64,000 nt of DNA, taken from assembly GCA_017615325.1 (NCBI GenBank), contig JAGAAI010000013.1, positions 1 through 64,000 of the forward strand, read 5' to 3'. Below the pieces are notes generated by a model, which had not been told where the DNA came from, ran no database searches, and saw only the letters and a program-made list of their open reading frames with translations. The position numbers and the translations under genes were made by a program. This document shows, piece by piece, positions 46,948-62,659 of the stretch. Source of the DNA: Clostridiales bacterium (GTDB lineage: Bacteria > Bacillota > Clostridia > Saccharofermentanales > Saccharofermentanaceae). Each line of letters begins with the position of its first letter. Within the stretch, counting starts at the first letter, position 1.

Positions 46948-48303
46948 TTACTCCAGACCTCTGATCCTTCTTACCCTGTTGGAAAGTTCCATAAGGTCGC
47001 ATTCGCACTCGGCGATCTTGGAGATTACGTTCTTATTGTCCATCGTTATCGTGTAGTTGTAAGCGAAAGCCTTCTCGACGCTGTCGTGACTTTCCGTGTA
47101 CTTCATGCTGAAAAGTTCTATAGCATATCTTATCTCATCGTGCGTAAGGTTCATCTTCATGCAGGAATTGCCGGCATTCTGGAAAGAGCAGAAAACATCG
47201 GGTGTCATATCTTCCATCCCGTCAAGATGGAAGTCGGTAAACTCGTTAAAGGCCACGATATCGCTGTCCATGTATTCAGCCAGTTTAAAGGTCTCATATA
47301 GTGTTATCCAGGTATCCTCAGGGAAGCCTATAGTATAGAAGGCCATCGTCTTGACGCCCTTGGAGCGGATCATGTCGACAGTCTTTTTCTGACCTGCCTT
47401 GTCGACTATGTTGCTCTTGTATTTGCCGAGTATCTCTTTGTTGCCTGACTTGATATCAAAGCATACGAGGAAGAGTCCTGCTTCCTTCATAAGATCTATG
47501 AGCTCTTCATCAAGACTTGAAAGTTCCGTCTCGCAGATCCAGGAGATCTTGATGCCTTCGGATATGATCCTCCTGCAAAGATCCATTATCCGTTCCTTGT
47601 CACAGGTAAAGAACTGATCCCTGAACTGGATGATGTCAACGCCCAGCGCTACAAGAGATCTTATGTCTTCCATGACCTTATCGACATCTCTTGATTCGTA
47701 AGCATTATAGTACTGGATATAAGGACAGTATGCGCAGTTCAAGGGGCAGCTGCGGCTCGCAAGGACCGTGAGCCTTATCTTGTCGTTGTCGTCCCTATAG
47801 GACTTGTAATCGACCAGGCTGTAATCCGGTACCGGCATATCGTTGATCGTGCCTTCGCGGCCGTTGACGTATCTATATATGTACTTGTCCAAAGGTTCAT
47901 CGATAACTTCATCTACCCGTGTGTTTTTGCAGATCCAGGACTTCAGGGTCCTTACCGCCTGACCTGCCAGCATGACGTAAGATCCGGGGATACTGTCCTT
48001 GATCATCCTTGCAAGTTCCAGGTCGCTCTTGATGGTCGCTGCAGCCGTCTTTATGATCAGCTTGTCGAACTTAACGGAAGAGATCTTTTGCAGGAGATCG
48101 TCAGGCAGGATCTTGCCCTCAACATAAGCATCCAAAAGAACTGCAGAATAGTCGTCAGAATCATTGAGGATCGTTGCTGCATTTATAAGAGGCAGATCCG
48201 GAAAGACATCCCTGCTGTGGAGCACAGTCCCGAATTCGCCTTGCGCGTCAGTATGTATATTTACGCCATAATATGGGCGCACCAGTAAAAATCGTTCCTT
48301 CAT
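46948..48303 (-). CDS. radical SAM protein (B12-binding-like N-terminus)
   Basis: 451 residues. The radical SAM cluster motif C186-x3-C190-x2-C193 (SRSCPLNCAYC) binds a 4Fe-4S cluster and S-adenosylmethionine. The N-terminal ~150 residues look like the cobalamin-binding-type Rossmann domain of methylthiotransferase or BchE relatives, with YSAVLLDAYVEG and KLIIKTAA, but no DxHxxG is seen. The barrel continues with DIIQFRDQFFT and ISWICETEL. The substrate is unknown. It is transcribed alone. Confidence 0.82.
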   Translation of the reverse strand: MKERFLLVRPYYGVNIHTDAQGEFGTVLHSRDVFPDLPLINAATILNDSDDYSAVLLDAYVEGKILPDDLLQKISSVKFDKLIIKTAAATIKSDLELARMIKDSIPGSYVMLAGQAVRTLKSWICKNTRVDEVIDEPLDKYIYRYVNGREGTINDMPVPDYSLVDYKSYRDDNDKIRLTVLASRSCPLNCAYCPYIQYYNAYESRDVDKVMEDIRSLVALGVDIIQFRDQFFTCDKERIMDLCRRIISEGIKISWICETELSSLDEELIDLMKEAGLFLVCFDIKSGNKEILGKYKSNIVDKAGQKKTVDMIRSKGVKTMAFYTIGFPEDTWITLYETFKLAEYMDSDIVAFNEFTDFHLDGMEDMTPDVFCSFQNAGNSCMKMNLTHDEIRYAIELFSMKYTESHDSVEKAFAYNYTITMDNKNVISKIAECECDLMELSNRVRRIRGLE

Positions 48304-51062: not shown

Positions 51063-53513
51063 CTATTTTTTGGTGTTAATAGACTTATCGTATTTATAAA
51101 GGAACGTTACCATCTGGCGTCTGAGGCAGTCACCATTGGGTCTGAATGTGCCATCGCTGTATCCAGCCAGGATCTTCTTCTCTGATGCCCAGATAGTTGC
51201 AGTATAGAAGTAATCAGACTTCTTTACGTCCTTGAACTTGTTCCTCGTGGATGTGGGCTTAGGCTTTCCGGCCAGTCTCCAAAGGAATGTTACTGCATGC
51301 TTTCTTGCGCATACGATCTGTGGACCGAATGTGCCGTCCTTATAGCCTTCCACTATGTGGTTCTCGTTACCCCAAATGCAAGCTTTGTAGAAGTAATCGG
51401 TCTTCTTAACATCTTTGAATTTGCACTTTGATGTCTTAGGCTTGGGCTCACCCTGAAGTCTCCAGATAAATGTTACCATCTGTGCACGGGTACACTTGTT
51501 TGCAGGCTTGAACTTAGTCTGTTTATCGTAGCCTTTGACAACGCCCTTTGCGGTCAGGTAATTGGTCGGAGCATACCAGAAGTCCTTGGTATTAGTTACA
51601 TCCTTATAAAGTACTGTTACAACGCACTTAGCAGACTTCCCTGCTGCAGTTGCAGTGATGGTTACTGTTCCTGCCATCTTGGCCGTAACCTTACCATTAG
51701 CATCTACTGTTGCGATCTTTCTATCAGATGACTCCCAAGCGATCTTGGAAGAAGAGCCCTTAAGTGTTGCTTCCAGTGCTAAATCCTTTCCACAGATAAC
51801 AGATGCCGTCTTCTTATCGAGAGTCAAGGACACTGTCGAAGGTTTCGCGGTAGGATTGGATGCCGGATCATTGGAGGGCTTTTGTGTAACAGCAGGCTTC
51901 GCAGTCGGAGTTGCAGTAGCAGTAGGTGTAGCTGTCGCCGTCGGTGTCGGCTCAAAGTGGATAAGCTTAACTTTTCGGGCAGGAGTACCGTCTGCATCAC
52001 AAATGGTCTTCTTGCCGTCATCAAACTTACCGTTAACGGGCTCTATGATCTTGTTGTATCCCAATCTCAGAATATCTGTCTTCATTGCAACGGATGAATC
52101 CCCTGATGTCTCCAAGGATACCGATGCCGTCTTGTTAGCAACAGTGATCCCGTTGGATGCTGACATCGTATCTCCGTCGTCACTTGTAAAATCGACCTGA
52201 CCGCCTTGGATAACAATATTTGCTGCAACAACGGCAGACCTATCAGATCTTCCCGAAATATTACATCCGTCGGAGAAGACGACGTAACTGTCTGACTTAA
52301 ACAGTTCTGTATTAGCAGTCAGATTCGCAGTACCCTCTGCTTGAATGGCAGAAGGAGAATAGAAGAGCGGCTCTGTAAGCGATGAATAATAACCATTTTT
52401 CGTATTATCGAAATCCACAAAGACCAGCTTATTCTCAGACGATATGAATTTTAATCTCCCGTCTGCATACCAATCGAACAGATCGGCCAGGTTATCATGT
52501 GAACTGAGCTGGTGACCTGCTATATAGAGCGGATATTTGATCTCGTCATTACCGGGATAATGATAGACAATACTGTTATACAAGCATAGCTGATGATCAT
52601 TTTCATCATATGCGGTAACAAACACTCTAATATCCTGTTCGATATTTATGTTTCTTAAATGCCAGGGCATAAAGTAATCCGTGTTCCGGGTGTCCAGTGA
52701 TTCAGAGCGACTGCTGTTTGACCTCATTTTATACTTAAAACTGACAGAGTAACTTGTAGCACCGGGAAAAGCATCCCAACTGATAAGGCCGTCTTTCTCA
52801 GTCAGTCCGCTGACACCTTTGATCTCGGATGCTGTATATTTGTCAAGACTTATAGAAGTGAATCCACTTATTTGATATCTCGGGTCACTTGATCTTGCAT
52901 GCACAGAAATCCAATAATCGAATGTCCCATTTGACAGGAATGATTCAGCCGGAAGCTCCGTTGAAGTCAGATTTGTAAATTCTAACGGTAAAACCTCATT
53001 GTTATTCTCGTCATAAACACTTACTGAAACGTTATAGTTTATAACGGCTTCAGGATCAACTTCCGGGTCATTAAATTCCCATGTAACTTTTTCCCCATCA
53101 AAGGAGAGATTCTCAACTGTATTTAATTTGTGGTAATCATATACATATGTACATTCGTAATAGTATTCATCACCGTTAAGAGCCGTGGCATATAGAATAA
53201 ATTTGTAGGTACCGGGTGCAAGCATGGTATTTGATTTAAATTCGTCTTGGATATTGACTTTGGTAAGCAGACTGCTATACCCGCTTGTACCTCCTGCCGG
53301 TTCACCGGTATCACAATCACGGATCGAAGTATAGATGTATCCGTTAACATTATTTGAGATCCTATCCCAAGTGATAACATCGTCATCCGAATGCTGTAGA
53401 TTCGGAAACGCTATCCTGTTACCCGCAGAAACCTTTGACGGCATAAAGAACTGAATGCCCGCCAGGATAAAAACAACCAACAGAACACCCAAAAAGATCT
53501 TTAACTTATTCAC
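51063..53513 (-). CDS. Fn3-like, BIg2 and three-SLH surface protein
   Basis: 816 residues from a GTG at 53513, chosen because GGAGGGG lies 7 nt upstream; the only earlier in-frame ATG (53555) has no site. A signal peptide or anchor (about 1-31) is followed by about three beta domains with Fn3-like spacing (VITWDRISNNVNGYIYTS, KVTWEFNDPEV, LISWDAFPGATSYSV). A region of unknown fold with polar repeats comes next (about 330-530). Then come a TPTATA linker, BIg2 and three SLH domains. It is a wall-bound surface protein that differs from its LRR sisters in the front half. Confidence 0.86.
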   Translation of the reverse strand: MNKLKIFLGVLLVVFILAGIQFFMPSKVSAGNRIAFPNLQHSDDDVITWDRISNNVNGYIYTSIRDCDTGEPAGGTSGYSSLLTKVNIQDEFKSNTMLAPGTYKFILYATALNGDEYYYECTYVYDYHKLNTVENLSFDGEKVTWEFNDPEVDPEAVINYNVSVSVYDENNNEVLPLEFTNLTSTELPAESFLSNGTFDYWISVHARSSDPRYQISGFTSISLDKYTASEIKGVSGLTEKDGLISWDAFPGATSYSVSFKYKMRSNSSRSESLDTRNTDYFMPWHLRNINIEQDIRVFVTAYDENDHQLCLYNSIVYHYPGNDEIKYPLYIAGHQLSSHDNLADLFDWYADGRLKFISSENKLVFVDFDNTKNGYYSSLTEPLFYSPSAIQAEGTANLTANTELFKSDSYVVFSDGCNISGRSDRSAVVAANIVIQGGQVDFTSDDGDTMSASNGITVANKTASVSLETSGDSSVAMKTDILRLGYNKIIEPVNGKFDDGKKTICDADGTPARKVKLIHFEPTPTATATPTATATPTAKPAVTQKPSNDPASNPTAKPSTVSLTLDKKTASVICGKDLALEATLKGSSSKIAWESSDRKIATVDANGKVTAKMAGTVTITATAAGKSAKCVVTVLYKDVTNTKDFWYAPTNYLTAKGVVKGYDKQTKFKPANKCTRAQMVTFIWRLQGEPKPKTSKCKFKDVKKTDYFYKACIWGNENHIVEGYKDGTFGPQIVCARKHAVTFLWRLAGKPKPTSTRNKFKDVKKSDYFYTATIWASEKKILAGYSDGTFRPNGDCLRRQMVTFLYKYDKSINTKK

Positions 53514-53583
53514 AACTATCCCCCTCCGAAAAACACTTCCCCATAAGTTTATCACATAGCGGGACAGGTTTTCTGATAAAATA

Positions 53584-53615
53584 CTGAAAGATCATATAGA
53601 AATGAGGTCTTTCAG
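53584..53615 (+). promoter_or_regulatory. hairpin around the ribosome binding site of the glycosyltransferase gene
   Basis: Perfect 8-bp arms CTGAAAGA (53584-53591) and TCTTTCAG (53608-53615) enclose the GAGG (53604-53607) that would serve translation of the next gene. A TAAAAT just upstream may be the -10 box. Confidence 0.45.
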
Positions 53616-53702
53616 ATAGATACTTTTCTTATCATAATCTTATCTCTTTTTGTTGCTGTCGCATTATTCATTCTGGCGATAGTCATCTATGCTCATATCC
53701 TA

Positions 53703-54422
53703 ATGGCAAAGCGCCCGCTGACAATACTTTATGACAACAGGGCCGGCCAGGAGGATTTTTGTCCTTTAGATGATATCCCTCCGGCTTTTATACACTTTAT
53801 TCTCCAGGTCGAAGATGACGGGTTTTTCGAGCATAAGGGACTGGTTTGGCTGGGGATAAGGGATGCGATCATGCTCAACATAAAGAACCGGAAGATCGTG
53901 ACGGGTGGCAGCACTATCAGCCAGCAGCTGGTCAAAAACCTCTATTTCAGATTCCATCATAATCTCTTGAGGAAAGCATGTGAACTTATCATCACCTGCA
54001 GGATGGAACGAACTTTCAGCAAGCAGAAGATATTGGAACTCTATCTTAATACCATCTATTGGGGATTCGGGATCTACGGGATAAAGGATGCGGCAGACTT
54101 TTATTTCATGAAGGATCCGTCCGAACTTACCATAAACCAGATGTTCATCCTGGCCTGCATTCCTTTCGCGCCGACGATGGGCAATCCTTTAAGCTTTCCC
54201 GACGTTTTTTTTAGGATCCGCAACAAGAGGCTCGATCTGCTATTGAAAAGAGGCACCATCTCCGAAGAAGATGCCAATGACATCCGCTCCCACGGCTTGG
54301 ATGATCTTGATCCGTCGCTTCGCAGGGCCGATGCTTTTACGGACAATTACTCCAGGGAGATCCCCCTCAACAATGACCGCTTCGGTCCCTTCCCTGACGA
54401 TAATAAGGTAACAAGGCCATGA
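53703..54422 (+). CDS. monofunctional peptidoglycan glycosyltransferase (GT51)
   Basis: 239 residues from the first ATG. It is the transglycosylase domain that polymerises lipid II into glycan strands: EDDGFFEHKG with the catalytic Glu, GGSTISQQLVKNL, and RKILELYLNTIYWGFGIYGI-type active-site strands. No transpeptidase domain follows. In-frame codons upstream (53616-53702) encode a clear membrane helix (FLIIILSLFVAVALFILAIV), so the true start is probably near 53616, where an ATA sits 8 nt after GAGG. No ATG, GTG or TTG is available there, so a rare start codon or a frameshift is likely. It overlaps the next gene by 4 nt (ATGA), so they are translated together. Confidence 0.85.
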   Translation: MAKRPLTILYDNRAGQEDFCPLDDIPPAFIHFILQVEDDGFFEHKGLVWLGIRDAIMLNIKNRKIVTGGSTISQQLVKNLYFRFHHNLLRKACELIITCRMERTFSKQKILELYLNTIYWGFGIYGIKDAADFYFMKDPSELTINQMFILACIPFAPTMGNPLSFPDVFFRIRNKRLDLLLKRGTISEEDANDIRSHGLDDLDPSLRRADAFTDNYSREIPLNNDRFGPFPDDNKVTRP

Positions 54423-57142
54423 GATTATTACATTTCGAAGGATATATCCGTAACCGGAAGAAACTCTTGCAGGAACTTGATATCTGCGGGGGACTTTCAG
54501 AAGAAAGAACAGAGCGTAAGATCATCTTAAAGGCTTATAAGAAATGGGGTCACTTCATCGGTGATCACCTCTACGGGTCTTTTGCGATAACGATATCGGA
54601 CGAGGAGAAAGAAGAAATCTTCTGCACGAGAGACCAACTCGGTATAGAGCAGCTTTACTATCATCTAACCCCTTCAGGCCGCCTTCTGACAGGATCAGAT
54701 ATACAGGAGATCACATCCGATCCCGAATTCGAAAAGAAGCTTGATCCCTTTGCTTTCCAGCTTTACATGATCTTCGGTTACGTTGCAGGTGACAGGACCC
54801 TTTATGAAGGCATAAGAAAGCTCATGCCGGGCAGCTTTCTGATCTATAAAGAAGGGAAGGTCAGCATCACAAAATACAGCAAGATAGATTTCCGCCCGGA
54901 TAACAGAGTCACGGAAGACGAATGGAAGGATAAGATCAGCAATACTCTTCAGGAGATCCTGGATGAAGACAGGGATGATCCGGACTTTGATAGTTGCACG
55001 TCCTTCCTGTCGGGAGGCGTTGATTCGAGTTTCCTTCTTTATGCATCAGGCGCTAAGAACGCCTGTTCCATCGGATATGAAAACAGCCCCCTGTCAGAGA
55101 CCGGATATGCTTCGGAGACGGCAGAGGCACTCGGAGCCAGACTCGATCAGACGATCATAAACGCAGATGAATTCTTCGCATCGATCCCCGATGCAGTCAG
55201 GGACATAGGTCTTCCCACAGCGGATGCTTCGACCATCGCCTTCTACATTGGATGCCGGAAAAGACATGCTGACGGGGGCATATACCTGTCAGGAGAAGGG
55301 ATCGATGAACTCTTTGCAGGATATCATGTATACAGCCGCTCCGAAGAATTAGGAAAACCCAAAGCCGGAACTTATCTCGGCTGCTCGGGTCTTATGAGCC
55401 CGGATACTGCAAGGCAGCTCACTTGTCAGGAGAAAGCCGTTTCATGCGAAGAACTCGTAAAGGATCTTTATGAAGACTTAGAGGACTGCGACGGCCTGTC
55501 GCGTATGTTGTCTGTCGACCTTGCGCTCTGGTTCGAAGGCGATATCCTGCCTGGCGTAAGCAGCTCATCAAAGGCTGCAGGCATAAAACTCCTCCTTCCC
55601 TATTCAGATCAACGTATGGCAAAGCTTGCCTGTCAGATCCCCTCAAACCTTAAGAGGAAGGGTGACACAAATAAATACATATTCCGCAAGACGGCTTCTG
55701 ACTATATCCCGTATGAGACTGCGTTCAGGAAGAAGGTAGGTTTTGCTGTCCCGATCAAGGAATGGCTTACCAATGAATGCCGCATGGAAGACATTGATAA
55801 AGTTCTGTTCGGCAAGACATCATCTAATCTCTTCAACCAAAAACTCCTGCATGAATTCCGGGAAAAGTCACTCTCCGATATCCGGGACCTCTGGCGGATA
55901 TATGCCGTTTACATATTCATAATCTGGTATGAGAACTGTTTCCTAGATGACGGTAAGAATACCGTTGACTTCAGGGATTTTCTTATGGACGATCCCCGCT
56001 ATAACAGAGAAAAAGCATGGCCTGAAGAAAGATTCCCCGATGCGAATTATCATTATATCCGGGATACGGGCTGCCTGGTCTGTGCTCTTGCATACATGCT
56101 ATCAGCAAACGGGATCGAGAAAGAGTATGACATAAGATCTTTTGATCCATGGATATTAAACGGGCGTCTTATTGAGTGCGGTGCCTTCACGCCTGCCGCA
56201 GATCTTGATCTTTTCGCGATCAGCAGGCTCTATCCACTCCTGTATCAGGGTCCCGTAATTTATTCGGAAGAGAGACTCAAAGAGTGTGTAGATAATGGCG
56301 ATCTCTGCCTTCTCACGGTCCCGGGGCAGAAAGGGATCCACCACTTCATAGCATTGGATCATCTTCTTCCCGGAGACGCATCTGTATTTGATCCCAAATC
56401 CGGCATGAGGCTCTTAAGCGATTATGAGCGCGTCCTGGAGATACGCCCTTTCAGACCATACACGGGGGAGATCAAAAGGCCGGTACAGGTCGGAACAGCA
56501 CGCAGCGATAAAGACCGTCATCCTCTTTCCGATAAAGCTCTCAAAAGAGTTGCACTGACCTTTGATGACGGACCTTCGGGAGAGACTACCTTAAGGGTAA
56601 TGGAGTGCCTGACGAGGCATTCTGCAAAAGCTACTTTTTTTGTGATCGGTGAAAACATCATTGAACACAGCGGCCAGTTAAAGCTCATGCGGGAGTCAGG
56701 CTTTGGTATAGGCATCCACACATGGGATCATGAGAGCATCTGTTACATGAACGAAGATGAATGCCGTGAAAACCTGAAGCGAACGGCTGATGCCGTCGCC
56801 GATGCCTGCGGGGCAACTGTCTCAATGATGAGGCCTTCCTACGGACTTACCTCAGAAAGCACACAAAAAGTGGCAGCGAATCTGGGACTTGCGACGATAG
56901 GCTGGAGCATCGATCCGGGCGATTGGCGGTTAAGGGATCCTCTGAAGATAACAAAGTCGGTTTTGGAAAATATATATGACGGCGATATTGTGCTTTTACA
57001 CGATATTTACAAGGAAACTGCCGAAGCAGCTGACATACTGATCCGCAAATTAAAGGAAATGGGATTCGAGTTAGTTACCGTGGAAGAACTTGCCTCATCT
57101 TACGGGGGGCTGGTTCCGGGAAAGATCTACAGTTATTTCTGA
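54419..57142 (+). CDS. fusion of Asn-synthetase-like ligase, C39-like peptidase and NodB deacetylase
   Basis: 907 residues in three parts. About 1-160 is an N-terminal-nucleophile (GATase_7) domain without the catalytic Cys2; it begins MRLLHF. About 170-515 is the AsnB-type ATP-pyrophosphatase with S198-GGVDSS and GEGIDELF (292-299). About 540-685 is a C39-like papain-fold domain: C552 (DTGCLVCALAYML), H641/H642 (GIHHFIALD) and D658 (VFDPKSG). About 708-890 is a NodB polysaccharide deacetylase: TFDDGP (714-719), H767 and H771 (GIHTWDH), RPSYG, DPGDW and LLHD. There is no signal peptide. Translationally coupled to GT51, it may amidate or otherwise tailor cell-wall material. A lasso-cyclase-like peptide role is the alternative. 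All catalytic motifs except Cys2 are intact. Confidence 0.87.
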   Translation: MRLLHFEGYIRNRKKLLQELDICGGLSEERTERKIILKAYKKWGHFIGDHLYGSFAITISDEEKEEIFCTRDQLGIEQLYYHLTPSGRLLTGSDIQEITSDPEFEKKLDPFAFQLYMIFGYVAGDRTLYEGIRKLMPGSFLIYKEGKVSITKYSKIDFRPDNRVTEDEWKDKISNTLQEILDEDRDDPDFDSCTSFLSGGVDSSFLLYASGAKNACSIGYENSPLSETGYASETAEALGARLDQTIINADEFFASIPDAVRDIGLPTADASTIAFYIGCRKRHADGGIYLSGEGIDELFAGYHVYSRSEELGKPKAGTYLGCSGLMSPDTARQLTCQEKAVSCEELVKDLYEDLEDCDGLSRMLSVDLALWFEGDILPGVSSSSKAAGIKLLLPYSDQRMAKLACQIPSNLKRKGDTNKYIFRKTASDYIPYETAFRKKVGFAVPIKEWLTNECRMEDIDKVLFGKTSSNLFNQKLLHEFREKSLSDIRDLWRIYAVYIFIIWYENCFLDDGKNTVDFRDFLMDDPRYNREKAWPEERFPDANYHYIRDTGCLVCALAYMLSANGIEKEYDIRSFDPWILNGRLIECGAFTPAADLDLFAISRLYPLLYQGPVIYSEERLKECVDNGDLCLLTVPGQKGIHHFIALDHLLPGDASVFDPKSGMRLLSDYERVLEIRPFRPYTGEIKRPVQVGTARSDKDRHPLSDKALKRVALTFDDGPSGETTLRVMECLTRHSAKATFFVIGENIIEHSGQLKLMRESGFGIGIHTWDHESICYMNEDECRENLKRTADAVADACGATVSMMRPSYGLTSESTQKVAANLGLATIGWSIDPGDWRLRDPLKITKSVLENIYDGDIVLLHDIYKETAEAADILIRKLKEMGFELVTVEELASSYGGLVPGKIYSYF

Positions 57143-59226
57143 GCAGGATGGTCCTGTGTCTCCTCACAGTAAAGCTCCCTATATTCCTTGCATTTTTCCA
57201 TAAGCTCGGAATGCGTGCCTGATGCCAGTATCTTTCCCTTATCCATAAAGAATATCCTGTCACAGTCCTTAACCGTTGACAGACGGTGAGCTACCATGAT
57301 GATGGTCCTGTCACCTGAGATATTGCCAATGGTATCCATTATAGAAGACTGGGTCAGGTTATCTAAGGCTGATGTAGCCTCATCCAGGATGATAACGGGA
57401 TAATCCTTAAGAAGGACCCTTGCCAGTGCCAAACGCTGGCGCTGGCCGCCTGACAGGGTAATGCCGCTCTCACCTATAACAGTGTCATAGCCCTGAGGAT
57501 ATGTTTGGAAATCGTCGTATATGCAGGCCATCCTGAAAACCCTGTTCAGATCCTCATCCGTAAGATCTTCCTTAACGATATTCATGTTGTCACGAATGCT
57601 CATGTTAAATATATAAGGTGACTGCCCAACCATTGCGATATTGCCGCGGACCGTATCTTTATCGAGTCTCCTAAGGTCAACGCCATCCAGCATCACACTG
57701 CCACTGTCAGGATCATAAAGGCGAGTTATGAGGGACAGGAGCGTACTCTTTCCGCATCCGCTCCTCCCGACGAAAGCAACTTTTTCACCGGCATTTACCG
57801 TCAGGTCGACTCCCTTAAGGACTTCCACACTCCTGCCGTTTTCATGAAGATAGGAGAAATAAACATTCTTTAAAGAGATCTCACCCCGGGCATCATGGAT
57901 CTTCTCTTTCCCGAAGGATTCCTTTGCAAAATCCGGGCTTTCCAAGAGCTGATAAACACGTTCGGATGACAGCAGAAGGCCATAGTAAGTATCCATGATC
58001 CCTGTGATCGATCTGGCCGACACATATGCCCTGCCGTTGTAGTTATAAAGAACAAGGGCCGTAGCCGGAGTGATGATGCCAAAGGAGAGCTGGAGAGCAA
58101 GAATACTCATATAGATAAAATCCGTAAAACCGACGTATTCGCTTCTCAAAAGGATATATTTCATAGACCTTATGCGCATATGGTTTACGAGTCCCACGCT
58201 CTCGTCTATGCCGCCCTTCATCTTGGACATAAAAGAATCTTCGGCATGAAGCAGTTTGATGTCACGGTGCGCACGCACCATCTCGCTGGTAAAACCTGCC
58301 ATTTTCTCATTCACGGATCTGACCTTACGGTCATCTCTCGCGATACTCCTCGTCTGTGCTCTCTGGATAAGTGCGTAAATGGCAAACAGAGCGATCTCAA
58401 AAAGCATCATCTGCCATGACACGATGGCAAAGGCTATCATGAGGCTTACAAAGCGGAAGACCTCAGTAAGGTCTGTAAGCAGTTCGTCAAGATCGTCAGT
58501 CATGTTATCGACTTCCGAAAGGAGTCTCTGGGTAAATACACCGCTGCTGTTGCGGTCCATGCATTCCGTCTTGATCATAAGGACATTAGAGACGATGGAT
58601 CTTCTCATATCCTTTGCCATGGAACTGTACGATTCCCTCAATAGCCTGCTCGAAAAGTAAGTGATCAGCCCGCTTGCTATGGCCTGACCCAGGATCAGGG
58701 CTGCGAGCATGAAGATCTTAGTTATATCCGATGCTGCATATGCCGTGATTATATATGCCGACAGGATAGGCTCGATCGTGGTGAGCACCATGTTAACGAG
58801 TCTTAGGACAGACGCAAAGACAAAGGCCTTTTTCTTCTTCGCCATATACCTGAGTATGTAAATGAGACTGTTCTTCTCAGGGACAATGGCATCCTCTTCG
58901 AAATGATAGATATTCTGATCGCCCCGTAAGTGCCACTTAGGAGCAATATCCGTATTCTCCAGGAGATTTTTGACTATCACGCTTCTCGGCTTTTCGAGAT
59001 CGTTAAATGGATCGCCGTCGATCTTAAGATCGATACAGACCTTCTTCTTTTTCCTTATGGAATCCACCGCAAAGGAAACTGCTTTCTCCGAGGCAAGATG
59101 ATCCAGGATTATCGCTTCGATGAGCAACTTCAAATGCAGGCAGCGCTTTGAATCGATACTGCTCTGATCCAGGAATTCTCCTAATTCCTCAACGGTCTTA
59201 TGTATGTTTTCTCGTGACAGTTCCAT
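57133..59226 (-). CDS. ABC exporter (fused membrane and ATPase domains) with N-terminal extension
   Basis: 697 residues. An unusual soluble N-terminal region (about 1-120) has a His-kinase-like-ATPase-style helix (LKLLIEAIILDHLAS) but no clear nucleotide motif. Six membrane helices follow (about 135-410), then the ATPase: Walker A GRSGCGKSTLL, LSGGQRQR, VIILDEATSALD and VAHRLST. It is of the lipid/peptide exporter (MsbA-like) type. It lacks the C39 leader-peptidase domain that peptide exporters often carry at this position. It converges on the ligase-peptidase-deacetylase gene with a 10-bp overlap of 3' ends. Co-function is possible but not shown. Confidence 0.85.
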   Translation of the reverse strand: MELSRENIHKTVEELGEFLDQSSIDSKRCLHLKLLIEAIILDHLASEKAVSFAVDSIRKKKKVCIDLKIDGDPFNDLEKPRSVIVKNLLENTDIAPKWHLRGDQNIYHFEEDAIVPEKNSLIYILRYMAKKKKAFVFASVLRLVNMVLTTIEPILSAYIITAYAASDITKIFMLAALILGQAIASGLITYFSSRLLRESYSSMAKDMRRSIVSNVLMIKTECMDRNSSGVFTQRLLSEVDNMTDDLDELLTDLTEVFRFVSLMIAFAIVSWQMMLFEIALFAIYALIQRAQTRSIARDDRKVRSVNEKMAGFTSEMVRAHRDIKLLHAEDSFMSKMKGGIDESVGLVNHMRIRSMKYILLRSEYVGFTDFIYMSILALQLSFGIITPATALVLYNYNGRAYVSARSITGIMDTYYGLLLSSERVYQLLESPDFAKESFGKEKIHDARGEISLKNVYFSYLHENGRSVEVLKGVDLTVNAGEKVAFVGRSGCGKSTLLSLITRLYDPDSGSVMLDGVDLRRLDKDTVRGNIAMVGQSPYIFNMSIRDNMNIVKEDLTDEDLNRVFRMACIYDDFQTYPQGYDTVIGESGITLSGGQRQRLALARVLLKDYPVIILDEATSALDNLTQSSIMDTIGNISGDRTIIMVAHRLSTVKDCDRIFFMDKGKILASGTHSELMEKCKEYRELYCEETQDHPAQK

Positions 59227-59303
59227 TCAGATATAATAACACAAATATATAACTTCAAGGAGACGGGACAGTCTCAATCAGACATCTTCCCTTCTGATCT
59301 TAT

Positions 59304-59714
59304 TTAAATTCTCTTGATATAAAAATACTTGCTCAGTCTGGGATCATCATCCTCACGGACAAACTCCAATCCATATCCGAGCTTTTTGTAAAACTCCGGA
59401 GCCTGGAATCCGAAAGTCGTCAGCGTGATCTTCTTATATCCTTTGCCGCTATATTCTTCTTCAACAGCCTTCACGAGCTTCGTGCCGATATCCTGCCCTC
59501 TGCTCTTCTTATCAACGATCAGGTCAACGATATGGACATTGTTATAGTATGCGCGGCCGGTTACAACACCCAGTATCTCCCCTTCCTCTTCAGCCACAAA
59601 ACAAAACTCATCAAAATTGAGTTCCACGTTGTTACTTAATGCATAGTCCGCGAAAGCCTGATCGAGAAATTCCCCGATCCTATCATTAGTTTCCTTTACG
59701 TTTTTAATGATCAT
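59304..59714 (-). CDS. GNAT acetyltransferase
   Basis: 136 residues. It is a single GNAT domain with VHIVDLIVDKKSRGQDIGTKLVKAVEEE for acetyl-CoA binding and APEFYKKLGYGLEFVRED near the end. GAGG lies before the ATG. It follows the acidic protein gene at 59740 by 25 nt and may share its transcript. The substrate is unknown. Confidence 0.85.
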   Translation of the reverse strand: MIIKNVKETNDRIGEFLDQAFADYALSNNVELNFDEFCFVAEEEGEILGVVTGRAYYNNVHIVDLIVDKKSRGQDIGTKLVKAVEEEYSGKGYKKITLTTFGFQAPEFYKKLGYGLEFVREDDDPRLSKYFYIKRI

Positions 59715-59739
59715 TTATTGTTACCTCTATTCTTTCTTT

Positions 59740-60183
59740 TTATCCAAACCGGGATTTTAATTCTTCGGCTCTCTCCGGTCTCCCATAGAAATCACTTATA
59801 GATTTATAGATAGCTCTTCTTGTGTTGACACCGCAATATGGAAGGATCGATTCCAAGTCAACATATGTTTCCGAAGCCAATACTTCAAGGAGCGTGGTAT
59901 CAATATCTTCAATCAGCATACTATTACCTGACAACTGTAACTCCTCGATAAAATCGAAGAAGCGTTTCCACTCATTATGCAGATCTGGTTCTTTGTTGTA
60001 CTTCTCAATGAACTGATGATTGATCACATCATCCATCAAAACTGTTGACAAACCTTTTATATCGTCATCAATTTCTTCATCGTTTAAACGCAGCCAATCA
60101 AACCTGCTCCTGAACTCATTCAGAAGATAGTCATATATCTTTGCACTTTCCAATAAGTTCAGTTCAAACAAGTCTGAATCCAT
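59740..60183 (-). CDS. acidic protein of unknown function
   Basis: 147 residues, strongly acidic and probably all-helical, with no signal peptide or membrane helix. Features are WLRLNDEEIDDDIKG, a Trp-centred EWKRFFDFIEEL and a Cys near the end (ILPYCGVNTRRAIYKSI). Size and charge resemble contact-toxin immunity proteins, but no toxin is nearby and no family was recognised. GGGG precedes the ATG. Confidence 0.55.
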   Translation of the reverse strand: MDSDLFELNLLESAKIYDYLLNEFRSRFDWLRLNDEEIDDDIKGLSTVLMDDVINHQFIEKYNKEPDLHNEWKRFFDFIEELQLSGNSMLIEDIDTTLLEVLASETYVDLESILPYCGVNTRRAIYKSISDFYGRPERAEELKSRFG

Positions 60184-60304
60184 GGCATCCCCTTTTCAAA
60201 CTACTTCTCCAAATTTGACAATCTTTTAACGGCCCTCATTATAATCGGTGTATCTTAACAGGTATCCAGTCCACCGGTTCTCCCATGCCTTGTATCGGTA
60301 GAAA

Positions 60305-62659
60305 TTATTGTCTCTCTTTTATTACTGTCCCGGCACGATTGTTCATTATCTTAATTGTATCATCAAGTGACTTGTCCCGCGCAAGGAATGGCTGGATATC
60401 CTCGTAGATGATGATGTCAATATCGCTGTCTGATCTTACTATATGGTTAACCGATTCGGTTACAGTCCTTATAGTGTCCAAGGAATCCGCTCCTATTTCA
60501 TCTGTTGAGTCTGTGTCCCAGACCATGAAGCTGGTCCTGTTTTTCATTTGACGGTTATATCGTTCAAGGCAAACTTCACCAACCGCATCAAAGGCCTTGC
60601 GATTGACCGGGAAAGAATTCTGGGTGGCAAGATCTTCTTCCGGTCTGCAAAGATCGGTTTGGACATCCTGACTTAAGAGCTTTTCTATAAATCTCCAAGC
60701 CCCTTGTGGGCATTTAGAACCCTGCGATACCGATACGAACCTTCTTATCTCGGCTGCAGGTCCGCGTCCGTCACCAGACGGGAATCCGACAAGATCTGCA
60801 TTTTGGAGATTAACGGAAACATCATAAACACTGTTGAACCACCCCAGATAACCCTCTACACCGAGGGATGGTGCATAGTCCTTCTTAAGGCTGTTGAGAT
60901 AATCATCCAATTCGAGATCATCTATATTTTCCAAACTGTATTCAACAACATCCCTAAATGCGGGACAGTCAAAATCGAAGGCCCCGTCATGCTCCAAAAG
61001 ATCGTATTCGCATTTGAGACATTCACTGATGAAATCGGTTTTCGATCTTGCGATGACATTTATTCCGTTGCTGTATGAATCCGTAAACTCTTTGAACTGC
61101 TCAAACGTCATTCCAGAGCCTTCGACATCATACTTGGATCTGTCCACGATAATGCCATCCAGTACAAAAGATAATGGAACCGCGTACAAAGCTCCATTGT
61201 TTTCGCAGGACTTGATCACATTGTCAAAGACTTCATCCTTCAATTTGCTCGACTCATAATAAGGCTTTAGATCCATCATGCATTTTCCGTTATTCAGTTG
61301 CCCGTATTTAGAAACATAGAAGACGATATCTGGGCTGTTTCCGGATTTAAGATCCACCATCATTCGGCTCGAGACTTCTCCTTTGGTATAGATCTCAGGA
61401 AGATCCGATCCGTATGAGCTGTGTTCCTTGTCCGAGTAGATGTTCGGAACTATCTTGATGAAATAATCCTTATCAGTCTTATTGAAAGAATAGATGGCAT
61501 CATAGATCGCATTTTCGGGATACCCGTCAGTCGTTATAAGGATCTTTCCGGCATTGGGATTCGTTTTTGCTCTTGTTGCTTTACAGATGTCAATTACAGT
61601 GTTGCAATCCTTCAGGCAGCTGTCGCAAACCGCAAAATCAACCGTTTCCTCATTGGCATTCATTACTTTGCAGATAGTTGCATTCATTGTATTTACAAGA
61701 GTACGGTTTATATCAACGTTTTCGAGCATGACGATATCATTCATACGCTTGTTAACGAAATCCGGAGTTGAAAAACCATCCGGAGTGACAAAGTATAACT
61801 GACCGTCCATGCCTATATTATGGGAGATGTCTTCTCTATACCATGTGAAATAGGGTTTGATCCAATCGTAGTCCGATGTGTTTTTTGAAAGTTTCCTTTG
61901 GGCAGCATCGTATATAAAATAGTTATATTTCTGATAATCATAGAAGAGCACCTGTGTGCTGCTTACGGGTATAAGATCAGATACAAATCCAGACAGGTCG
62001 TTAGCAAATTCACTCCCGGGAGCAAAACAGAAATCACTGCCGTCAGGGCCGACAGTAAGAATGCTGAAATCCTCATACAGACTGGTATAAAGATCGTACT
62101 CACCACACCTGGTCCATCTGACCTGATCACCTTCATAGACGGAAGCCAGGCCGCGGGAAAACTCATACGAATCCAACAAGACAACGGAATCTGACTTTAT
62201 ATCGATGTCGAATACCATTACCGTTTTGTCACTGTAATTATTTGCTTTCATCTTGAGGAATCCGTCAACGACATATAGATCATCCGCGATAGAAAAAGAT
62301 GACATATTAATATTGGGATATGATTCCCTGATCTTTGAGCGAAGATCCATTTGGGCAAGAAGACCGCCCTTCTCGGAATATAGATAGAGATTCAGCACTG
62401 AAAGGTCGTATCCCTTAACCGCAAAGATATAACCATCTGAGATCTTCCCGACCGGACACTGATAGGTATCGTTTTCGACAAAAGCATTTTCATCGATCTT
62501 TGCGGAACATTCTAAAATTTCACAATCGTACCAGGGTTTATCAGCGTTGATCTTCTCGCCTGCAGATTCTGTCTTATTCGCGAAAAATGAACAGCCATAT
62601 AGAGAAAGCGACATGGCACAAATTACAAACAAAGCAATAAACTTTCGAATGTTCTTCAT
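60305..62659 (-). CDS. large solute-binding lipoprotein with extra N-terminal domain
   Basis: 784 residues. The signal peptide ends at LYGC, giving a lipoprotein. The C-terminal part (about 370-765) is a family-1 extracellular solute-binding protein: KILITTDGYPENAIYDAI, SGNSPDIVFYVS, ALYAVPLSFVLDGIIVD, and VSVSQGSKCPQGAWRFIEKL. The N-terminal ~330 residues repeat beta-strand motifs such as ISDGYIFAVKGYDLSVLNLYLY and DDLYVVDGFLKM, like a small beta-propeller. No permease genes follow, so it may sense or bind sugar rather than transport it. GGAGGGG precedes the ATG. Confidence 0.75.
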   Translation of the reverse strand: MKNIRKFIALFVICAMSLSLYGCSFFANKTESAGEKINADKPWYDCEILECSAKIDENAFVENDTYQCPVGKISDGYIFAVKGYDLSVLNLYLYSEKGGLLAQMDLRSKIRESYPNINMSSFSIADDLYVVDGFLKMKANNYSDKTVMVFDIDIKSDSVVLLDSYEFSRGLASVYEGDQVRWTRCGEYDLYTSLYEDFSILTVGPDGSDFCFAPGSEFANDLSGFVSDLIPVSSTQVLFYDYQKYNYFIYDAAQRKLSKNTSDYDWIKPYFTWYREDISHNIGMDGQLYFVTPDGFSTPDFVNKRMNDIVMLENVDINRTLVNTMNATICKVMNANEETVDFAVCDSCLKDCNTVIDICKATRAKTNPNAGKILITTDGYPENAIYDAIYSFNKTDKDYFIKIVPNIYSDKEHSSYGSDLPEIYTKGEVSSRMMVDLKSGNSPDIVFYVSKYGQLNNGKCMMDLKPYYESSKLKDEVFDNVIKSCENNGALYAVPLSFVLDGIIVDRSKYDVEGSGMTFEQFKEFTDSYSNGINVIARSKTDFISECLKCEYDLLEHDGAFDFDCPAFRDVVEYSLENIDDLELDDYLNSLKKDYAPSLGVEGYLGWFNSVYDVSVNLQNADLVGFPSGDGRGPAAEIRRFVSVSQGSKCPQGAWRFIEKLLSQDVQTDLCRPEEDLATQNSFPVNRKAFDAVGEVCLERYNRQMKNRTSFMVWDTDSTDEIGADSLDTIRTVTESVNHIVRSDSDIDIIIYEDIQPFLARDKSLDDTIKIMNNRAGTVIKERQ

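Follow-up and report, generated by a model that had tools for sequence, protein, structure and literature searches.

The question raised by this locus was whether an AsnB-type amide ligase, a C39-like peptidase and a NodB-type deacetylase, enzymes usually produced as separate proteins, are genuinely encoded by a single gene, and upon what the resulting protein might act. The window, meaning the whole stretch of 64,000 nucleotides that was analysed, contains the fusion gene directly downstream of a glycosyltransferase gene, whose stop codon overlaps the fusion start by 4 bp (Table 1).

Table 1. Coordinates of features at the fusion locus (positions refer to the window, residues to the fusion protein)
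Feature	Position	Strand	Basis
Monofunctional GT51 peptidoglycan glycosyltransferase (probable start)	53616..54422	+	Pfam Transgly 4.2e-49; N-terminal TM helix
Three-domain fusion gene	54419-57142	+	907 aa, one open frame end to end
AsnB-type synthetase domain, residues 1-510	54419..55948	+	Profile matches; PP-loop SGGVDSS 198-204; lacks first ~70 glutaminase residues
Putative C39_2/papain-like domain, residues ~515-699 (C552, H642, D658)	55961..56515	+	Triad alignment, hhalign, AF2
NodB/CE4 polysaccharide deacetylase domain, PgdA-like, residues 700-907	56516..57139	+	Pfam 1.5e-29, PDB match, motifs
ABC exporter-type protein, convergent	57133..59226	-	10 bp overlap with fusion end

The fusion gene is real, and its frame runs uninterrupted throughout. 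Codon usage across both domain junctions favoured this frame over the two other forward frames, and third-position G-C content (AsnB 0.53, middle domain 0.51, NodB 0.50) was ordinary in comparison with other genes in the window; nothing in these two measures suggests a frameshift or misjoin. The three-part chain of the preliminary description was upheld. That three genes were joined during assembly is highly improbable: with 99 contigs the assembly is fragmented, and the architecture had no second copy in the genomes searched, but such an artefact would need two in-frame misjoins with matching codon usage and third-position G-C, and the frame overlaps the GT51 gene in the usual 4-bp manner.

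Pfam identified Asn_synthase at residues 193-503 (E 1.9e-45), a partial GATase_7 at 4-98 (1.2e-15) and Polysacc_deac_1 at 709-826 (1.5e-29). The catalytic motifs previously described as intact were all present, i.e., SGGVDSS (198-204), SGEGIDELFAGY (291-302) and RKKVGF (437-442) in the synthetase, candidate catalytic residues C552, H641/H642 and D658 in the middle domain, and TFDDGP (714-719), HTWDH (767-771), RPSYG (805-809) and LLHD (859-862) in the deacetylase. As also noted before, there was no signal peptide; a hydropathy scan of the whole chain found no stretch suitable for an export signal or for a transmembrane segment, the highest 19-residue value being 1.18.

The first domain belongs with AsnB and the mDAP amidotransferases by virtue of an ATP-PPase synthetase domain that carries the SGGxDSS and SGEGxDE motifs. 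By profile matching, the first ~70 residues, and with them the N-terminal Cys glutaminase of AsnB type, are absent; the GATase_7 match starts only at position 26 of the 123 in its profile, that to the asparagine synthase model TIGR01536 at 73 of 517. It was therefore incorrect to describe Cys2 as replaced by Arg, because the entire segment that would hold it is missing. The same shortening was observed in more than 50 stand-alone homologues from gut and rumen Clostridia, which are 33-43% identical to the fusion ligase. When five of these were aligned, and four were run through Pfam beside a full-length protein, the truncation point was equal to that of the fusion ligase and the similarity extended over ~505 residues. 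The loss of the glutaminase most likely preceded the fusion and was inherited from this stand-alone family, to judge from the shared truncation. Its absence is therefore uninformative about the amine used and, the shortening being common to so many stand-alone homologues, ammonia is as likely a donor as another amine. The earlier view that the ligase uses an amine other than glutamine-derived ammonia was thus left unsupported, for free ammonia would serve.

Short AsnB homologues numbered four in a class sample of 291 genomes and approximately 50 in named genomes ([Ruminococcus] torques and Ruminococcus flavefaciens among them), and 30 of 397 genomes in one family rich in the short ligase carried one. 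All stood alone, at ~510-540 aa, with no fusion to other domains seen, and their genes had no widely kept neighbourhood nor any conserved neighbours related to the wall. No description of these proteins was found in the literature searched. In a phylogeny, the fusion ligase paired with that of a rumen Lachnospiraceae bacterium (L102), with support of 100/100; G1090 (from locus L248), at 43% identity, is at least as close but lies outside the tree. At L248 (3738-10278), the short AsnB gene follows genes for a SpoIIE phosphatase, a STAS protein, a MATE transporter whose C-terminus weakly matches HATPase_c_2, and a protein of 311 aa without a Pfam match. The fusion ligase was only ~27% identical to Listeria AsnB and was not specifically near the mDAP amidotransferases.

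Neither another AsnB synthetase nor AsnA was found in the source genome or in the genus relatives checked; the ligase therefore looks accessory, and not like a housekeeping enzyme established in the genus. One explanation is that a horizontally acquired short AsnB was joined, through deletion or read-through, to C39-like and deacetylase genes, after which the domains would keep their own activities or decay, and the ligase may just make asparagine from ammonia. The singleton architecture agrees with such an uncoupled fusion, as do the separate relatives of each domain, the short AsnB standing alone elsewhere without conserved neighbours, and a genome in which the lack of any other AsnB or AsnA leaves room for an ammonia-dependent asparagine synthetase. 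However, each of the three domains retains its motifs and the coding signal continues along 907 codons, when decay should have begun if the fusion were useless, and this origin was considered fairly unlikely.

The middle domain (~515-700) had no sequence match in Pfam, PHROGs, PDB, plasmids, phages or viral contigs, and a PF13529 profile search of its own genome gave no match at E<=0.001. In alignment with C39_2 proteins from related genomes, C552, H642 and D658 corresponded to the invariant Cys, His and Asp, with the order and spacing of the C39_2 triad; H642 is therefore the putative catalytic His. Comparison with C39_2 by hhalign gave a probability of 41.5%, over the His-Asp half. Structure prediction by AF2 was uninformative without an alignment (pLDDT 39); supplied with the C39_2 alignment, it reached pLDDT 70-81 in the core, the model being steered by those relatives. 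Foldseek matches to this model were weak (E>=0.2), though many of the best were papain-like (PCAT1, ComA, CtaG, C70 and a C39-like peptidase). A profile of the C39_2 relatives had the endoisopeptidase PeiR as its best PDB match, and is dominated by the relatives rather than by the query. The C39-like peptidase proposed initially is thus weakly supported, by profile and model evidence, of which the structural part is not independent of the alignment.

In the deacetylase domain all five CE4 motifs were found, as in PgdA. The NodB/CE4 region lies at residues 709-891. Across 199 residues the domain shared 43.5% identity with Listeria PgdA, its best PDB match was 2c1g, a peptidoglycan GlcNAc deacetylase, and it was 32-42% identical to the genus's own deacetylases. 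By sequence, the domain is closest to peptidoglycan deacetylases.

The upstream gene encodes a GT51 domain and a TM anchor, without a transpeptidase, and is a monofunctional GT51. Its frame does not begin at the annotated ATG (53703): upstream of it, codons for a strong TM helix follow in frame as far as an ATA at 53616, and a GAGG lies at 53604-53607. Support for the N-terminal extension came from monofunctional GT51 homologues in other Clostridia (30-37% identity), whose alignments begin at residues 3-8 of the lengthened protein. The true start is probably this non-ATG codon, which would provide the membrane anchor, the choice of codon itself being provisional. A cytoplasmic GT51 beginning at ATG 53703 was discarded once the in-frame upstream helix had been found. 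The ATG at 53602 opens a frame of only five codons, and a sequence error or frameshift within 53601-53703 is also possible. No close GT51 partner was found when 85 genus genomes were searched. Among 11 other monofunctional GT51 loci, one (L260, 650-2223) had a polysaccharide deacetylase gene directly downstream, adjacent and on the same strand.

Downstream, the convergent ABC exporter-type protein had one relative at E<=1e-100 in 84 genus genomes; the searches of 85 genus genomes used the ABC and GT51 proteins only. The ABC gene is at most a possible associate of the fusion. Its product has an N-terminal extension of ~120 residues without a Pfam match, and a genus relative (L218, 9156-11243) likewise has an extension; a GHKL-ATPase-like N-terminus common to it and the L248 MATE protein was unsupported by hhalign. 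Elsewhere in the window, the reverse strand at 23654-53555 carries a cluster of large surface-type proteins with a near-identical C-terminal module of Ig-like and SLH-type repeats, several having leucine-rich-like repeats as well, and at 46948-48303 a B12-type radical SAM protein, which resembles PhpK-family methyltransferases at a sub-threshold level, adjoins a GNAT gene. PADLOC gave no match to the fusion or the GT51, and a defence system was set aside.

In a further explanation the enzyme is dedicated to a small peptide-like metabolite: the ligase would form an amide, the C39-like domain would act as a peptidyl transferase or peptidase, much as CtaG or C39 enzymes do, the CE4 domain would remove an acyl group and the ABC protein would export the product. 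CtaG has been called a peptidyl transferase of closthioamide biosynthesis (PMC6772006), and it appeared, together with the C39 peptidases of PCAT1 and ComA, in the weak Foldseek matches to the model of the middle domain. The exporter-type ABC gene is nearly absent from the genus, and the nearest ligase relative (L248) has genes for a MATE transporter and a GT2 protein beside it. Conversely, the genes next to the fusion include none for a carrier protein, adenylation, RRE, lasso B or radical SAM RiPP maturation, no small ORF is left over that could encode a precursor (none was unassigned in 53400-60500), the deacetylase domain is a typical PgdA, the ABC gene is convergent rather than co-directional, and the CtaG match (E 0.23) came from a model steered by the C39_2 alignment. 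A metabolite enzyme was accordingly judged unlikely. The nearby precursor peptide or RRE domain that had been suggested as a check was not present at the locus, nor was a lasso B domain, and a lasso or other RiPP reading was rejected.

Architecture searches agreed with the earlier statement that no described protein with this domain order is known. No second fusion protein was found in 58 other genus genomes (59 with its own) with the middle domain or whole chain as query, in 397 genomes of the family rich in the short ligase (AsnB and middle domains), in samples of 291 genomes from the class (AsnB domain) and 398 from the phylum (middle domain), or in named genomes, plasmids, phages and viral contigs. 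A phage origin was rejected, as the middle domain had no match in phages or viral contigs; matches of the AsnB and deacetylase domains in 'Listeria phage' records are, at a guess, host DNA. The best reading is that the fusion is lineage-specific, found in one genome only within the samples searched.

The explanation tentatively preferred, with a probability somewhat short of even, is that the fusion is a lineage-specific enzyme for the modification of peptidoglycan precursors, either cytoplasmic or lipid-linked, and is co-transcribed with the membrane-anchored GT51. Amidation of peptidoglycan mDAP by enzymes of the AsnB family is known from Listeria, B. subtilis, C. difficile, L. plantarum and C. 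glutamicum (PMC8554201), and this activity, together with the GT51 partner and the PgdA-like domain, suggests a role in peptidoglycan. The synthetase would activate a stem-peptide carboxylate with ATP and amidate it, probably using free ammonia, a step modelled on AsnB/LtsA, which amidate mDAP with glutamine; the C39-like domain would trim or transfer the stem peptide, the CE4 domain would de-N-acetylate the precursor hexosamine, and these edits would be tied to polymerisation by the GT51. In favour of the wall are the 4-bp overlap with the GT51 gene, its homology-supported anchor, the PgdA-like CE4 domain, the PeiR profile match, the absence of other AsnB or AsnA from the genome and the gene order at L260; against it are the distance of the ligase from Listeria AsnB, the lack of conserved wall-related neighbours around short AsnB genes and the lack of a second genome in which the coupling would be conserved. 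Of the two targets entertained in the preliminary description, the wall precursor was strengthened by the anchored, overlapping GT51 and the PgdA-like domain, while the peptide gained no support as a RiPP.

Topology is the main difficulty for this role in the wall. GT51 enzymes work outside the cell, as CE4 peptidoglycan deacetylases usually do; since the fusion chain has no export signal, its deacetylase domain would be cytosolic and on the opposite side of the membrane from the GT51. A stricter form of the proposal, in which a single cytosolic enzyme edits three positions of lipid-linked precursors (amidating a carboxylate with ammonia, cleaving or transferring the stem peptide, and N-deacetylating a hexosamine) before they are flipped and then polymerised by the GT51, was considered distinctly unlikely; if true, peptidoglycan would be deacetylated inside the cell, ahead of assembly. 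If the domains cooperate, amidation, peptide trimming and N-deacetylation of the wall would be coupled in one chain, the last of these possibly taking place inside the cell, and this would offer a handle on the common glutaminase-less AsnB family; if they do not, the gene is an unusual but functionally ordinary fusion.

Among known systems, the lasso cyclase with its B protease resembles the fusion in combining an AsnB-like ligase, with degraded glutaminase, and a Cys protease-type domain; however, the fusion scored 107 bits against the cyclase model NF033535 (cut-off 525), and the RRE, Transglut_core3 and precursor ORF of lasso systems are all absent from the locus. With respect to C39_2, C39, CtaG and PeiR proteins, the 16-residue His-Asp spacing of the triad matches the CtaG H128/D144 variants named in PDB, while the oxyanion Gln usual in C39_2 and C39 is replaced by Asn or Arg, depending on the alignment. 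The window GT51 consists of a TM helix and GT51 domain only, like other monofunctional transglycosylases, and differs in its probable non-ATG start and in being followed by the fusion gene. Whereas PgdA is exported and anchored in the membrane, the deacetylase domain of the fusion is C-terminal to a cytosolic-type ligase without a signal. The AsnB/LtsA mDAP amidotransferases share the AsnB superfamily synthetase with its PP-loop, but depend on glutamine, carry an N-terminal glutaminase and are unfused. The short AsnB proteins of gut and rumen Clostridia (for example L248, L102, L103 and [Ruminococcus] torques L132) have the same truncation and synthetase motifs as the fusion, yet they always stand alone where the window ligase is fused. 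The individual enzymes belong to known families, and it is their combination that is a new architecture.
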